From: Paenibacillus apiarius
Lineage (GTDB): Bacteria; Bacillota; Bacilli; Paenibacillales; Paenibacillaceae
Direction of reading: 5' to 3'
DNA: 64,000 nucleotides
Assembly: GCF_017052585.1 (NCBI RefSeq)
Contig: NZ_JAFFHZ010000001.1
Span: 3,700,001-3,764,000, forward strand
Below the pieces are notes generated by a model, which was given only the letters and a program-made list of their open reading frames with translations, was not told the DNA's origin and searched no databases. The position numbers and the translations under genes are program-made. How positions within the stretch are numbered: position 1 is the first letter of the stretch; every line of letters starts with the position of its first letter. This document shows positions 1-47,795 of the stretch, in pieces.

Positions 1-2555
<2,555 letters not shown>

Positions 2556-2635
2556 TACTAACACAATTGATTCTAGAGCAAATGAAACTTTCGCGTTCAG
2601 TTTTCAAGGCGCAATGCCTTGTTACAGATTCATAT

Positions 2636-2711
2636 TCCCTGATAGCTCAGTTGGTAGAGCACTCGGCTGTTAACCGAGTTGTCACAGGTTCGAGTCCTGT
2701 TCGGGGAGCCA
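2636..2711 (+). tRNA. tRNA-Asn (GTT)
   Basis: Cloverleaf with acceptor arms TCCCTGA/TCGGGGA, anticodon loop reading GTT, T-loop GGTTCGAGTCC and encoded CCA. First gene of a 16-tRNA cluster, starting about 80 bases after the 23S gene. Confidence 0.97.
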
Positions 2712-2712
2712 T

Positions 2713-2805
2713 GGAGAGATGTCCGAGTTTGGTCGAAGGAGCACGATTGGAAATCGTGTAGGCGCCAAAAGCGTCTCGAGGGTTCGAATCCCTCTCTCTC
2801 CGCCA
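2713..2805 (+). tRNA. tRNA-Ser (GGA)
   Basis: Class II tRNA of 93 nt with a long variable arm (GGCGCCAAAAGCGTC). Acceptor arms GGAGAGA/TCTCTCC, anticodon GGA in loop TTGGAAA, encoded CCA. Confidence 0.97.
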
Positions 2806-2810
2806 GCTGT

Positions 2811-2885
2811 GGCCCGTTGGTCAAGGGGTTAAGACACCTCCCTTTCACGGAGGTAACAGGGGTTCGAATCCCCTACGGGTCACCA
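2811..2885 (+). tRNA. tRNA-Glu (TTC)
   Basis: Acceptor arms GGCCCGT/ACGGGTC with one G-T pair, anticodon TTC in loop CTTTCAC, encoded CCA. Confidence 0.97.
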
Positions 2886-2967
2886 CTTACATCATTCAAC
2901 TGGAAGAAATTGAGGGTTGAAAAGAGTGAGTGATGATGATAGACTATAATAGTCATCGCAAAAAAAT

Positions 2968-3043
2968 GGACGCTTAGCTCAGCTGGGAGAGCATCTGCCT
3001 TACAAGCAGAGGGTCGGCGGTTCGATCCCGTCAGCGTCCACCA
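2968..3043 (+). tRNA. tRNA-Val (TAC)
   Basis: Acceptor arms GGACGCT/AGCGTCC, anticodon TAC, encoded CCA. Preceded by an 82-base spacer, the longest in the cluster; no separate promoter is obvious in it. Confidence 0.97.
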
Positions 3044-3047
3044 TTAT

Positions 3048-3124
<77 letters not shown>

Positions 3125-3129
3125 AATAT

Positions 3130-3206
3130 GGAGCTGTGGTGTAGAGGCCTAACATGCCTGCCTGTCACGCAGGAGAACGCGGGTTCGAATCCCGTCAGCT
3201 CCGCCA
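3130..3206 (+). tRNA. tRNA-Asp (GTC)
   Basis: Acceptor arms GGAGCTG/CAGCTCC, anticodon GTC in loop CTGTCAC, encoded CCA. Confidence 0.97.
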
Positions 3207-3210
3207 TTTT

Positions 3211-3286
<76 letters not shown>

Positions 3287-3298
3287 TACAAGGCTTGA

Positions 3299-3371
3299 GC
3301 CGGTGTAGCTCAGTTGGTAGAGCGGCTGACTTGTAATCAGTAGGTCGAGGGTTCGACTCCTTTCGCCGGCA
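3299..3371 (+). tRNA. tRNA-Thr (TGT), CCA not encoded
   Basis: Acceptor GCCGGTG/CGCCGGC, anticodon TGT in loop CTTGTAA. The 3' end reads GCCGGC-A-CTGATA, so the discriminator A is followed by CTG rather than CCA. It is the only one of the 16 without an encoded CCA, which would have to be added after transcription. Confidence 0.95.
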
Positions 3372-3381
3372 CTGATACTGT

Positions 3382-3467
3382 GGAGGATTAGCGAAGTGGC
3401 CAAACGCAGCAGACTGTAAATCTGTTCCCGGACGGGTTCGGTGGTTCGAATCCATCATCCTCCACCA
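3382..3467 (+). tRNA. tRNA-Tyr (GTA)
   Basis: Class II tRNA of 86 nt with a long variable arm. Acceptor GGAGGAT/ATCCTCC, anticodon GTA in loop CTGTAAA, encoded CCA. Confidence 0.97.
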
Positions 3468-3474
3468 CTTATAT

Positions 3475-3548
3475 AGGGGCATAGTTTAAAGGTAGAACAG
3501 CGGTCTCCAAAACCGTTAGTGTGGGTTCAATTCCTGCTGCCCCTGCCA
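3475..3548 (+). tRNA. tRNA-Trp (CCA)
   Basis: Acceptor AGGGGCA/TGCCCCT, anticodon CCA in loop CTCCAAA, encoded 3' CCA. This is the ligand expected for the T-box upstream of trpS at 47515-47795. Confidence 0.97.
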
Positions 3549-3566
3549 AGAGAAAATTGTGAATAT

Positions 3567-3643
3567 GGCGGTCGTGGCGAAGTGGTTAACGCATCGGATT
3601 GTGGCTCCGACATTCGGGGGTTCGATTCCCCTCGATCGCCCCA
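3567..3643 (+). tRNA. tRNA-His (GTG)
   Basis: Anticodon GTG. The extra 5' G (position -1) pairs with C73, the identity feature of tRNA-His. Acceptor GCGGTCG/CGATCGC; CCA encoded. Confidence 0.96.
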
Positions 3644-3654
3644 TATTACCACAA

Positions 3655-3729
3655 TGGGGATTAGCCAAGCGGTAAGGCAACGGACTTTGACTCCGTCATG
3701 CATAGGTTCGAATCCTATATCCCCAGCCA
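3655..3729 (+). tRNA. tRNA-Gln (TTG)
   Basis: Acceptor TGGGGAT/ATCCCCA, anticodon TTG in loop CTTTGAC, encoded CCA. Confidence 0.97.
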
Positions 3730-3732
3730 TTT

Positions 3733-3807
3733 GCGGACATAGCTCAGTGGTAGAGTATCGCCTTGCCAAGGCGAGGGTCGCGGGTTCGAATCCCGTTGTC
3801 CGCTCCA
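3733..3807 (+). tRNA. tRNA-Gly (GCC)
   Basis: Acceptor GCGGACA/TGTCCGC, anticodon GCC in loop TTGCCAA, encoded CCA. Confidence 0.97.
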
Positions 3808-3810
3808 GAT

Positions 3811-3885
3811 GGCGCCATAGCCAAGTGGTAAGGCAAAGCTCTGCAAAAGCTTTATTCCCCAGTTCGAATCTGGGTGGCGCCTCCA
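3811..3885 (+). tRNA. tRNA-Cys (GCA)
   Basis: Acceptor GGCGCCA/TGGCGCC, anticodon GCA in loop CTGCAAA, encoded CCA. Confidence 0.97.
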
Positions 3886-3896
3886 ACTTGCAATAT

Positions 3897-3973
3897 GTGC
3901 CCTTAGCTCAGCTGGATAGAGCGTTTGACTACGAATCAAAAGGTCAGGAGTTCGAATCTCTTAGGGCACGCCA
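3897..3973 (+). tRNA. tRNA-Arg (ACG)
   Basis: Acceptor GTGCCCT/AGGGCAC, anticodon ACG (A34 presumably edited to inosine, as is known for this tRNA), encoded CCA. Confidence 0.97.
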
Positions 3974-3995
3974 TTTAAGATAATTAGCTTCATAT

Positions 3996-4078
3996 GCCGG
4001 TGTGGCGGAATTGGCAGACGCGCGCGACTCAAAATCGTGAGGGAAACCGTGGAGGTTCGAGTCCTCTCACCGGCACCA
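3996..4078 (+). tRNA. tRNA-Leu (CAA)
   Basis: Class II tRNA, 83 nt, acceptor GCCGGTG/CACCGGC. The anticodon loop CTCAAAA gives CAA. CCA is encoded. Last gene of the cluster. Confidence 0.95.
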
Positions 4079-29733: not shown

Positions 29734-31272
29734 TTAATGGTTGCACCAACCTTGCACTTCCCATACTTGCGTCACCCAGCCTTCATAGAAGTCCGGCTCG
29801 TGTGAAACAAGCAGAAGCGTGCCTTTATATAGTTGCAGAGCCTCTTTAAGTGCATCCTTGGCCCGGCTATCCAAATGATTCGTCGGCTCATCCAAGACAA
29901 GCACATTGCTTGTTGTCAGCATGAGCTCGCATAATCGGACCTTGGCCTGCTCTCCGCCGCTCAAGGAGCTGAGCGGCTGCCGAATATGGTTGTCTGTCAG
30001 TCCAGACATTGCCAGCGTTTGCCTAATTTCTTTCTGCGTCAAATCAGGCCGGAATGACCACAATAGTTCGAGCGCTGTGCGGGTTGAAGCAAAATCCTCT
30101 TGCGCAAAGTAGGCTGCCTTTACTTGCTCGCCTACTTGCACCGTGCCGCTTATTGGTTGCAAATGCCCCAATAATGTTTTGAGCATGGTGGATTTGCCGA
30201 CACCGTTATGCCCGACAATTGCAATTTTTTCACCGCGCTTGATCAGCAAATCAATCGGTCCGAATAGCGGCTCTGTATAGCCAATTTGTAGATTGTTCGC
30301 CTCGATAATTTTGTTTACGGGGTCCGTGTTCACTTGGAACGCAAAGCGGGGCCGTGGTCCGGACGCAGGTCTATCGATGCGGCTCATTTTTTCAAGCGCC
30401 TTTTCCCGGCTCTTCGCTTGCTTTGCTTTCCGGTTTCGATTTTTTTGGATAAAGCTTTCCAGCCTGCCGATTTCTCTTTGCTGTCTGTCATATGCAGCTT
30501 GCAGCTGCTGCTTGCTTTGTTCGTAGCTGTTGAGAAAGGCTTTATAATTACCTGTATACCGCTTGAGCGTTTGATGCTCTAGATGGAAGATCGTATTTGC
30601 AATCTCATTTAAAAAACGTTCGTCATGCGATACGACAAGGTAAGCATGCTTATAGCTTTTTAAATATCCGATAAGCCAATCAATGTGCGAGTCGTCCAAA
30701 TAGTTTGTCGGTTCATCAAGCAGCAACACATGCGGTTCTTCCAATAACAGCTTGCCTAACAACAGCTTCGTTCGCTGGCCGCCGCTTAGTTTCTCTACAT
30801 CGCGGTCTTTGCCTAGCTCTAAAATGCCCAATCCGGCAGCAACTTCTTCGATTTTCGCATCAATCTGATAAAAATCAGAATGCTCCAGCTTATTTTGCAG
30901 CTCGCCATATTGTGCCAACCATCGGTCCAGATCATGATCTGCCGCAGCCATTTTCTCTGCGATTTGCAGCATGCTGCGCTCGATCTCATACAAATGGGCA
31001 AATGAGCTGCGTAAATATTCCATAATGGTTGTTCCCGGTACCAAATCAATGTGCTGCTGCAGAAAGCCGATATTGACATGAGGATACCATGCCATCGTGC
31101 CTTCGTCAGGCAGCATTTCTCCAGCCAAAATGCGGAGCAGCGTCGATTTGCCCGCTCCGTTGCTTCCGACGAGTCCGGCGTGCTCTCCTGGCAGCAAACG
31201 CAAGCTTATATCTTTAAATATTTTTTTATCTCCGTACATATGGGTAAGTCGTTCAACGGTTAATATACTCAT
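29734..31272 (-). CDS. ABC-F family ATPase (YfmM-like)
   Basis: 512 residues, two ABC ATPase domains and no membrane segments, so a ribosome-associated ABC-F protein. Domain 1 has Walker A GSNGAGKST (36-44), signature LSGGQRTK and Walker B VLLLDEPTNYLD. Domain 2 has GHNGVGKST, LSGGEQAK and VLVLDEPTNHLD. Between them is a basic linker of about 80 residues (KKNRNRKAKQAKSREKALEKM) that in this family reaches the ribosomal exit site. It looks closest to Bacillus YfmM. ATG at 31272 has AAAGGAGAG upstream. Its leader contains a promoter, a 13-codon ORF and a terminator, the arrangement seen for ABC-F genes that are induced by ribosome-targeting antibiotics. Confidence 0.9.
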   Translation of the reverse strand: MSILTVERLTHMYGDKKIFKDISLRLLPGEHAGLVGSNGAGKSTLLRILAGEMLPDEGTMAWYPHVNIGFLQQHIDLVPGTTIMEYLRSSFAHLYEIERSMLQIAEKMAAADHDLDRWLAQYGELQNKLEHSDFYQIDAKIEEVAAGLGILELGKDRDVEKLSGGQRTKLLLGKLLLEEPHVLLLDEPTNYLDDSHIDWLIGYLKSYKHAYLVVSHDERFLNEIANTIFHLEHQTLKRYTGNYKAFLNSYEQSKQQLQAAYDRQQREIGRLESFIQKNRNRKAKQAKSREKALEKMSRIDRPASGPRPRFAFQVNTDPVNKIIEANNLQIGYTEPLFGPIDLLIKRGEKIAIVGHNGVGKSTMLKTLLGHLQPISGTVQVGEQVKAAYFAQEDFASTRTALELLWSFRPDLTQKEIRQTLAMSGLTDNHIRQPLSSLSGGEQAKVRLCELMLTTSNVLVLDEPTNHLDSRAKDALKEALQLYKGTLLLVSHEPDFYEGWVTQVWEVQGWCNH

Positions 31273-31365
31273 TTCATTCTCTCCTTTTCGCTTTGCATTC
31301 AAAGCCAAGCCGAGAGAACAGCAGCTTAAAGATCGCATTCAATTTGCAGCATTGGTGAAGTTAAC

Positions 31366-31400
31366 AAAAAATGGGTAAGGCGAACATACGCCTTACCCAT
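31366..31400 (-). terminator. attenuator terminator in the ABC-F leader
   Basis: Read leftward: perfect 12-bp stem ATGGGTAAGGCG with its complement, 6-base loop TATGTT, then a T-run (TTTTTTG). It lies about 95 bases upstream of the ABC-F start codon and downstream of its promoter, so it must be passed for expression. Confidence 0.85.
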
Positions 31401-31487
31401 TACAAAACGAATTTGTAAGAAAGGAATCGTTCTTTATCAACTGTTCTTCGGTTGGCTTAGATGAAAAATGGGCAGATCTCTCCCGTG

Positions 31488-31529
31488 TTAAGCCAAATAC
31501 CGTTTCAGAACAGTCGATAAAATCATCAT
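31488..31529 (-). CDS. putative 13-residue leader peptide (uORF) of the ABC-F gene
   Basis: ATG at 31529 after GGTGGAAAGGAA; it encodes MMILSTVLKRYLA and stops with TAA at 31488. It is the first ORF after the promoter at 31572-31601. Its own codons take part in two nested helices: 31507-31514 pairs with 31440-31447 (8 bp), and 31489-31496, at the uORF end, pairs with 31452-31459 (8 bp). A ribosome stalled on the uORF would break these helices. A freed GCCCAT (31468-31473) could pair with the 5' arm of the terminator. The peptide is inferred; no homologue is claimed. Confidence 0.6.
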   Translation of the reverse strand: MMILSTVLKRYLA

Positions 31530-31571
31530 TTCCTTTCCACCTCATTAGAAATTTATAGTTATACATCAGCA

Positions 31572-31601
31572 AGTATACGCAGTCGTTTGCTGACCTGTCA
31601 A
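31572..31601 (-). promoter_or_regulatory. strong SigA promoter of the ABC-F transcript
   Basis: Perfect -35 TTGACA, 18-base spacer, TATACT -10 read leftward. It is followed by a leader of about 290 bases. Strong initiation together with a downstream terminator fits control by attenuation. Confidence 0.8.
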
Positions 31602-47514: not shown

Positions 47515-47795
47515 AATTGAAAGCGATGATAAGGACAAGTATGCGATACGTTGGGCTTCAGAGAGCCGGTGGATGCTGTGAACCGGTGCTGGCGCATCAG
47601 CTGAATGGACCTTTGAGCGCTGAGCCGAACCGGTGCGATCCGAGCATCGCCAGTAGGCTTGGCCGCATCCCGGCGTTATCGGGCAGAGATTCGCGCAACC
47701 GCGACTTCAGTACATGCTAAGTACATGCTGGTTGAGGCGAATAAAAGAGGGTGGCACCACGGTCTTTCGTCCCTTGACGAAAGGCCTTTTTGTAT
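47515..47795 (+). promoter_or_regulatory. T-box riboswitch (tRNA-Trp) controlling trpS
   Basis: Leader with T-box hallmarks. The AGAGAGCCGGTGG...GAACCGG stem I element is at 47558-47586. The specifier is in GAATGGACC, with TGG (Trp) at 47606-47608. The T-box proper AGGGTGGCACCACGG is at 47747-47761, and the competing terminator GGTCTTTCGTC/GACGAAAGGCC plus T-run is at 47761-47791. Uncharged tRNA-Trp should stabilise the antiterminator and turn on trpS. Confidence 0.93.

Follow-up and report, generated by a model that had tools for sequence, protein, structure and literature searches.

The gene for an ABC-F ATPase in Paenibacillus apiarius is preceded by a leader that is, in all likelihood, a ribosome-mediated attenuator working on two levels, translation and probably transcription, and that carries a 21-nt element (ACGGGANANGTCTGYCCATTT) 3' of a short upstream open reading frame (uORF). 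This element recurs before unrelated genes for resistance to ribosome-targeting antibiotics in Bacillales, among them genes for ABC-F proteins including Msr, for Erm (ermD too), for HflX, and for Mph-, Mef- and FexA-like proteins. By its anatomy the leader would be an attenuator of translation, and probably of transcription as well. It resembles the vmlR attenuator with a second layer that hides the Shine-Dalgarno sequence (SD) of the gene; the unexpected part is the shared element. The leader occupies positions 31273..31601, on the reverse strand, of the window, that is, the whole stretch of 64,000 nucleotides that was analysed (Table 1).

Table 1. Coordinates of the predicted leader features and the ABC-F gene in the window
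Feature	Position	Strand	Basis
Sigma-70-type promoter, TTGACA-18-TATACT	31572..31601	-	site scan of sequence
uORF SD region, GAGGTGGAAAGGA	31531..31543	-	read from sequence
uORF MMILSTVLKRYLA plus stop (ATG at 31529, stop ends at 31488); codons 5-13 form strand A	31488..31529	-	28/29 distinct ortholog leaders
21-nt element, ACGGGAGAGATCTGCCCATTT	31466..31486	-	common to leaders of many resistance genes
Strand B, TAAGCCAACCGAAGAACAGTTGAT, putative partner of A (off state) or D (on state)	31436..31459	-	pair counts, duplex energies
ATTCCTTTC, base of the A:B hairpin, where it pairs with the uORF SD region	31419..31427	-	fold
Intrinsic terminator hairpin, then T-run	31370..31401	-	13 pairs
Strand D, GCTGTTCTCTCGGCTTGGCTTT, incomplete copy of strand A close to the ABC-F start	31301..31322	-	ortholog comparison
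ABC-F SD, GGAGAGAA, in the off state paired with TTCTCTC of D	31277..31284	-	folds
ABC-F ATPase, 512 aa, best NCBIfam model NF000355 'ribosomal protection-like ABC-F'	29734..31272	-	profile search

The initial annotation had described a promoter, a 13-codon uORF with its ribosome site, two 8-bp helices involving uORF codons, and a terminator with T-run before the ABC-F gene. All of these were recovered at the positions in Table 1. In the first helix ACTGTTCT (31514-31507) pairs with AGAACAGT (31447-31440), in the second TTGGCTTA (31496-31489) pairs with TAAGCCAA (31459-31452), and the regions concerned are paired in the fold. The 21-nt element, strand D and the hairpin that hides the SD are additions to that description. 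The whole leader folds at -99.1 kcal/mol (z -6.7; none of 200 shuffles equally stable). Promoter-like and terminator-like sites taken singly are found once each, against 1.5 and 1.9 expected in shuffles, and the decisive evidence for the predicted leader is conservation rather than the frequency of single sites. A search of the whole window against Rfam returned nothing at gathering score for the leader, and relaxed matches to the leader alone lie far below gathering scores. Elsewhere the window holds a 23S rRNA gene followed by a cluster of 16 tRNA genes (1-4075) and a T-box leader (47517-47777).

The ABC-F gene is read from the ATG at 31272, which has an SD at 31284-31277; a longer reading frame from 31338 was rejected as the likely start. 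With residues 2-512 as query, the protein scores 419.9 against the NF000355 cut-off of 380, and both ABC domains and the ABC-F linker are present (ABC_tran in two stretches, ABC_tran_Xtn at 84.6 bits). Among the best 25 NCBIfam families listed, the named resistance subfamilies Msr, Vga, Lsa, Sal, OptrA and CplR are all below cut-off. The best solved relatives are YbiT and EttA, with VmlR and Msr ranking after them. The protein looks like a housekeeping ABC-F, yet its gene has a full control region, and it may be a resistance factor.

To follow the leader through relatives, the protein was searched in 60 genomes (the source and 59 relatives), which gave 11 places at 68-100% identity, source included, the next matches being at 54% identity or less. 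The leader precedes all 11 orthologs and none of 19 paralogs. The 11 have in common the uORF, ACGGGA..TCTGCCCAT immediately downstream of its stop codon, the terminator, and strands B and D, the latter before the ABC-F SD. The best match to the element within 500 nt upstream has 0 mismatches in the orthologs and 6-8 in the 19 paralogs (51-54% identity), so the leader goes with this gene family. A comparable promoter is readable in 9 of the 11 leaders, the sequences of L005 and L007 ending short of the promoter region. The uORF SD has the form GAGGTGGAA(A)GG in 9 and GGATTAGAAAGGG in L005 and L007, and a sequence like ATTCCTTTC is present in the aligned ortholog leaders. A wider set of 43 loci with an ortholog of at least 58% identity yielded 29 distinct leaders, of which 25 still differ from one another when only the aligned part is compared; since most orthologs beyond the first 11 were found through element searches, their element is not independent evidence.

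Strand B (TAAGCCAACCGAAGAACAG) can pair either with the uORF codons (A) or with strand D (GCTGTTCTCTCGGCTTGGCTT), and D can also pair with the ABC-F SD. The fold of the whole leader gives A:B plus D:SD, and when folding starts at position 31493, without most of A, B:D replaces A:B and the SD is free. In the 25 leaders, A:B (25 pairs) is paired in 86.6% of cells, against 31-50% in slid controls, and B:D (18 pairs) in 90.4%, against 34-50% when slid. Judged against 500 shuffles that ignore the relatedness of the leaders, double changes are in excess in A:B (7 of 25 pairs, reached in 1 shuffle; 13 cells against 5.4, reached in none), in B:D (5 of 18 pairs, 8 shuffles; 11 cells, 2 shuffles) and in the 13-pair terminator, which is paired in 92.8% of cells (7 pairs, reached in no shuffle). 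The signal for D:SD is moderate: 83.1% are paired and 5 pairs have double changes (17 of 500 shuffles), and slid versions have as many. Further pair types are not above shuffles (333 of 500 for A:B, 156 of 500 for B:D). Duplex energies range from -23 to -35 kcal/mol for A:B and from -23 to -45 kcal/mol for B:D in 29 of 29 leaders. The compensatory changes support the predicted exchange of strands between A:B and B:D. What this comparison of sequences brings out is the putative uORF, A:B, B:D, the terminator and the element.

The anatomy combines hallmarks of two kinds of attenuator. Like the anti-antiterminator of vmlR-, ermK- and msrD-kind attenuators, the uORF codons lie in a helix with compensatory changes, and the order of promoter, SD-led short uORF and intrinsic terminator before the gene is that of the same kind and is conserved. 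As in translational attenuators of the ermC kind, the SD of the gene is hidden and is freed by an alternative pairing. The proposal of the initial annotation that this is a ribosome-mediated attenuator of the vmlR kind is borne out: the uORF, the helices that compete and the terminator are all kept in 25 distinct ortholog leaders, where compensatory changes also occur. It had looked to orthologous genes for the uORF and for pairing changes, and both are conserved in relatives; with uORF, helices and terminator retained there, a lack of conservation cannot be held against the attenuator. To this proposal the present analysis adds a translational layer, in which B:D pairing would compete with the hiding of the ABC-F SD.

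The uORF reads MxxL[ST][TA]V[LQ]xR in 28 of the 29 distinct leaders, being one residue shorter at its start in L004; L126 has the element and no uORF of this type. Counted from the Val, positions 4 and 10 are Leu and Arg without exception in these 28. Arg-10 is encoded by CGG in 21 and by AGA in 7, and because it is kept through both codons, selection seems to act on the amino acid as well as on the RNA strand. A ribosome with codon 9 in the P site would, by the usual size of its footprint, cover the message to about AUG+40, up to the end of A and the margin of the element. One positioned on the start codon would leave most of A uncovered, which favours an elongation stall. This geometry and the conserved Arg-10 point to a stall during elongation, at about codons 9-10, rather than to drugs that arrest initiation. 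With its nine-residue chain and an Arg in the A site, such a stall would resemble those that depend on macrolides, and Ser, Thr or Ala at positions 5-6 would also suit chloramphenicol or linezolid; with low confidence, a macrolide-like drug is ranked first as the inducer.

In the proposed mechanism, the uORF would be read fast when no drug is present, A would pair with B and the terminator would form; in transcripts that escape the terminator, D would hide the ABC-F SD. A drug would stall the ribosome on the uORF; the P site would then most likely be occupied by codon 9, and the A site by the invariant Arg-10. Covered by the stalled ribosome, A would leave B free to pair with D, and the SD would be released. 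Termination would probably be reduced simultaneously, perhaps through the 21-nt element between the uORF and B, which would be a module common to Bacillales resistance leaders. RNA polymerase would pass the element shortly before transcribing the 3' arm of the uORF hairpin. The element would fit best as a pause site at which polymerase and ribosome are kept in step, or as an antiterminator strand. Induction by a drug, the identity of the drug, the stall codon, the antitermination step and the resistance function of the protein are parts of this scheme that we infer.

The transcriptional coupling is the weakest link of the scheme. Within the element, TGCCCATT can pair with AATGGGTA of the terminator 5' arm, with CCC of the element opposite GGG of the arm in 24-25 of 25 leaders, and this pairing is possible in 87.0% of cells, against 35.5-53.5% when slid, with no double changes. 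In all 17 leaders computed it costs 6.0 to 17.1 kcal/mol relative to the terminator fold, the other 12 of the 29 being omitted (the strict hairpin finder failed in 11, and the arm lacked GGG in one). The sole antiterminator that can be named is thus predicted to be disfavoured at equilibrium, and could work only during synthesis of the terminator, or another step is missing. As a general antiterminator the element was rejected: against shuffled elements the mean z is -0.65, with 22% below -1.5, in the 59 of 91 non-redundant motif loci that have a terminator, and among these 59 the pairing is strong in the window family and a few others.

A purely translational attenuator, in which A:B gives way to B:D and frees the SD while the terminator is a constitutive damper, would account for the clear competition between B:D and D:SD and for the disfavoured antiterminator in the 17 leaders computed. 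We consider it unlikely, since the strongest compensatory changes belong to the terminator and the element keeps its CCC opposite the GGG of the terminator arm. Furthermore, the terminator lies between uORF and gene, as it does in vmlR, msrD and hflXr, for which the cited passages describe regulated read-through (PMC9226507, PMC10314930, PMC6310831). Control on both levels is the preferred reading.

Several known leaders share parts of this arrangement. In the translational attenuator of ermC a ribosome stall leads to an alternative pairing that frees the SD, as is proposed for the window leader, but ermC has no terminator step and a different peptide. The ermD leader of Bacillus licheniformis plasmid pBL141-1 (L278) is alike in having a uORF, the element (with 2 mismatches), terminator-like hairpins and a resistance gene. 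It differs in that its uORF (MTHSMRLRFPTLNQ) has an RLR motif and starts 85 nt before the element (43 nt in the window), in a CTCTGT..CAGAG hairpin directly before the element, and in its product, which is Erm and not ABC-F. The related ermK is regulated by attenuation. Alike in design is vmlR of Bacillus subtilis, which, in the parts of its description cited, shares the ABC-F gene, a uORF inside an anti-antiterminator hairpin, the terminator, an SD-hiding hairpin relieved by alternative pairing, and attenuation of both transcription and translation (PMC9226507). However, its uORF is the tripeptide MIN and its induction relies on initiation arrest, and its pause hairpin, with GCUAUUU and a TTATTT NusG motif, is unlike the 21-nt element; the sequence quoted for it differs, and the two were rejected as the same thing (PMC9226507). 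The hflXr (lmo0762/rli80) leader of Listeria, as far as the cited account goes, has a 14-aa uORF, an anti-antiterminator, an antiterminator, a terminator and induction by antibiotics, but the uORF is of the RLR type and the product is HflX (PMC6310831). In cplR of Clostridioides difficile an ABC-F gene is likewise under translational and transcriptional attenuation through a uORF; according to the sections cited, this uORF encodes MRI, and the SD is hidden by the stem of the terminator, a task that in the window would fall to the separate strand D (PMC10201436).

The element is widespread. With at most one mismatch, the pattern ACGGGANANRTCTGYCCATTT was found in 235 of 392 genomes of the source's order and in 76 of 398 of its class (the sets overlap), compared with 4 and 2 genomes, respectively, among the matches listed for the reversed pattern. 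Within the window the element is the only match at up to 3 mismatches, where 0.04 are expected. A scan of named genomes gave at least 117 stretches with the element, and the 80 stretches listed belong to Paenibacillus, Lysinibacillus, Brevibacillus, Fictibacillus, Gottfriedia, Neobacillus, Cohnella, Thermoactinomyces and others. Of these 117, 86 have the start of an ABC reading frame no more than 700 nt away, with two ABC signatures in 74 of them; 19 have another reading frame and 12 have none in reach. The 19 comprise 5 Erm, 6 MFS, 1 RidA-like, 3 truncated ABC-F and 4 unclear proteins, assigned partly by eye. Twenty representatives behind the element were named with NCBIfam. Among these, Msr occurs once (726.4, cut-off 680) and Erm twice (above 212), and ribosomal protection-like ABC-F exceeds 380 in four full-length proteins and stays below it in six cut by the end of the locus. 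Mph, Mef, FexA (protein cut) and an RlmA/TlrB-like methyltransferase were best matches, yet below cut-off, and four of the 20 received no NCBIfam name. With 2 mismatches the element is present in the ErmD leader of Bacillus licheniformis and the mef(F) leader of Macrococcoides canis. A search for relatives of the ErmD-type leader of L091 matched 25 plasmid records; the matching search with the ABC-F leader of L170 found none. Near the element, Rfam gave no match in 20 further motif loci, with one T-box elsewhere in L045. Probable chance matches of the pattern are L034, L055, L111, L160, L163, L176 and L212, and those among the 91 non-redundant loci are kept in the counts.

In the source genome the element occurs at five places with at most 2 mismatches: the window leader, two more ABC-F genes, a serine hydrolase and a short reading frame. 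When 3 mismatches are allowed, the count is 21 against 7 for the reversed control, so such matches need other support. One further ABC-F gene (G000:C1:332988-334604, reverse strand; L245/L259) has the variant element ACGGGATACGTGTGTCTTTTT, flanked by a terminator-like hairpin downstream and by a uORF whose start lies 79 nt upstream. A 3-mismatch element (L272; G000:C1:3013311, forward strand) precedes an HflX-like GTPase (TIGR03156 above cut-off). In two species (L045, and L261 at G000:C1:5416211 of the source genome) a variant element with a 5-codon uORF, MPAML, stands before a serine hydrolase, that of L261 belonging to the beta-lactamase Pfam family. At G000:C1:1525478 (L258) the element and a terminator-like hairpin precede a 132-aa reading frame, perhaps truncated, whose start looks like a GNAT acetyltransferase by eye and which has no Pfam match. 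The element also lies before a 189-aa protein with a C-terminal S4 domain (L103, L119), a candidate resistance gene for which L103 gave no NCBIfam name, and before a RidA-like (Ribonuc_L-PSP) gene (L043, L046, L147), with a 21-codon uORF in L043 and L046. A Stenotrophomonas plasmid (CP031730.1; L279) has an ErmD-like leader before an msr-type ABC-F gene, its element being one base shorter, with 6 mismatches ungapped; this is a leader of Bacillales type in a Gram-negative host.

The association was also examined starting from proteins. ABC-F homologs retrieved by protein in 60 genomes of the order have the element 160-345 nt upstream, differing from the pattern at no more than 3 positions, in 29 of 30 loci (30 of the 36 matches listed), L253 being the only one without it; second-best sites have 7-9 mismatches. 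A parallel search with HflX, again over 30 loci of 36 matches and with a slightly looser pattern and a longer stretch (~1000 nt), found the element at up to 4 mismatches in 13 of 15 HflXr-type genes of Paenibacillales (65-100% identical to the source's) and in none of 15 housekeeping HflX genes (49-51%; best 5-7 mismatches). The two remaining HflXr-type genes have 5 mismatches and a similar hairpin before the element.

The surroundings of the element are constrained in distance more than in sequence. A start codon preceded by a strong SD lies no more than 110 nt upstream of the element in 62 of the 91 non-redundant motif loci, whereas only 8% of 1571 control positions have one; by the same rule it is missing from the other 29. 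A strict finder places a terminator downstream in 59 of the 91. The start of the uORF lies 76-88 nt before the element in 45 of the 62 leaders, 40-43 nt in 9 (the window at 43) and elsewhere in 8. The uORFs themselves are of unlike types (RxR, long ones running through the element, and the window type), and the flanks of the element are little conserved in the 91 loci. Because these loci were fetched with the pattern, the invariance of the element in them is partly built in. In 26 distinct leader windows retrieved by protein, column identity averages 0.91-0.92 in the element and 0.45-0.83 in other stretches of ten; this alignment has no gaps and takes the element as its anchor, a bias in the element's favour. 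The element was rejected as coding sequence in general, as 24 of the 62 uORFs stop short of it and its amino acids are variable; 33 of the 38 uORFs that cover it use one frame (..NG[RIT][SRG]L[SP]IF..), with variable amino acids. It was also rejected as a self-contained hairpin (GGANA/UGUCC), as position 7 is G in 43% of the 91 and cannot pair with G14, and genomes with ACGCGA have no compensating change in the element. G3, G4, T13 and G14 would fit the pause consensus G-11 G-10..Y-1 G+1, which is only a lead; HflXr variants with A at position 14 speak against this fit.

Common descent of leaders passed between genes, the element having no function of its own, would explain why macrolide-type leaders share more than the element, namely a CTCTGn..CAGAG hairpin and an RxR uORF. 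We regard this as improbable, as the flanks are little conserved, the element exceeds other stretches in column identity (in the alignment that favours it), and the distance from AUG to element is confined even though the uORF sequences differ. A sensor of amino acid scarcity or of slow translation generally, rather than of a drug, has very little to recommend it: the ABC-F protein does resemble housekeeping ABC-Fs, but the uORF has no run of any one codon, and the same element precedes Erm, Msr, HflXr-type, Mph-like and Mef-like genes, several with RxR uORFs known from macrolide leaders. The reading of the element as a dedicated sequence-specific site (a pause, an antitermination signal or the target of an unknown factor) that defines one common class of antibiotic-sensing attenuators in Bacillales has somewhat less than even odds.

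The leaders of vmlR, cplR, msrD, mef(E) and hflXr are each treated singly in the parts of the papers cited (including PMC9226507, PMC10201436, PMC10314930 and PMC6310831). A description of the shared element was not found in the running text of the open-access literature searched, and of the six papers that an exact-string search returned, none deals with bacterial leaders to judge from its title. Many such attenuators would form one class with common mechanics if they share an element whose distance from the uORF start is confined. If so, any resistance gene, be it for ABC-F, Erm, Mph, Mef, a Fex-like protein or HflXr, could be brought under drug control through a single module of uORF start, approximately 80 or 43 nt, element and terminator. 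Genes of unknown role behind this module would then be candidates for resistance, and the element would provide a genome-wide handle on inducible resistance genes, perhaps the ABC-F gene of the window among them, that no sequence family flags.
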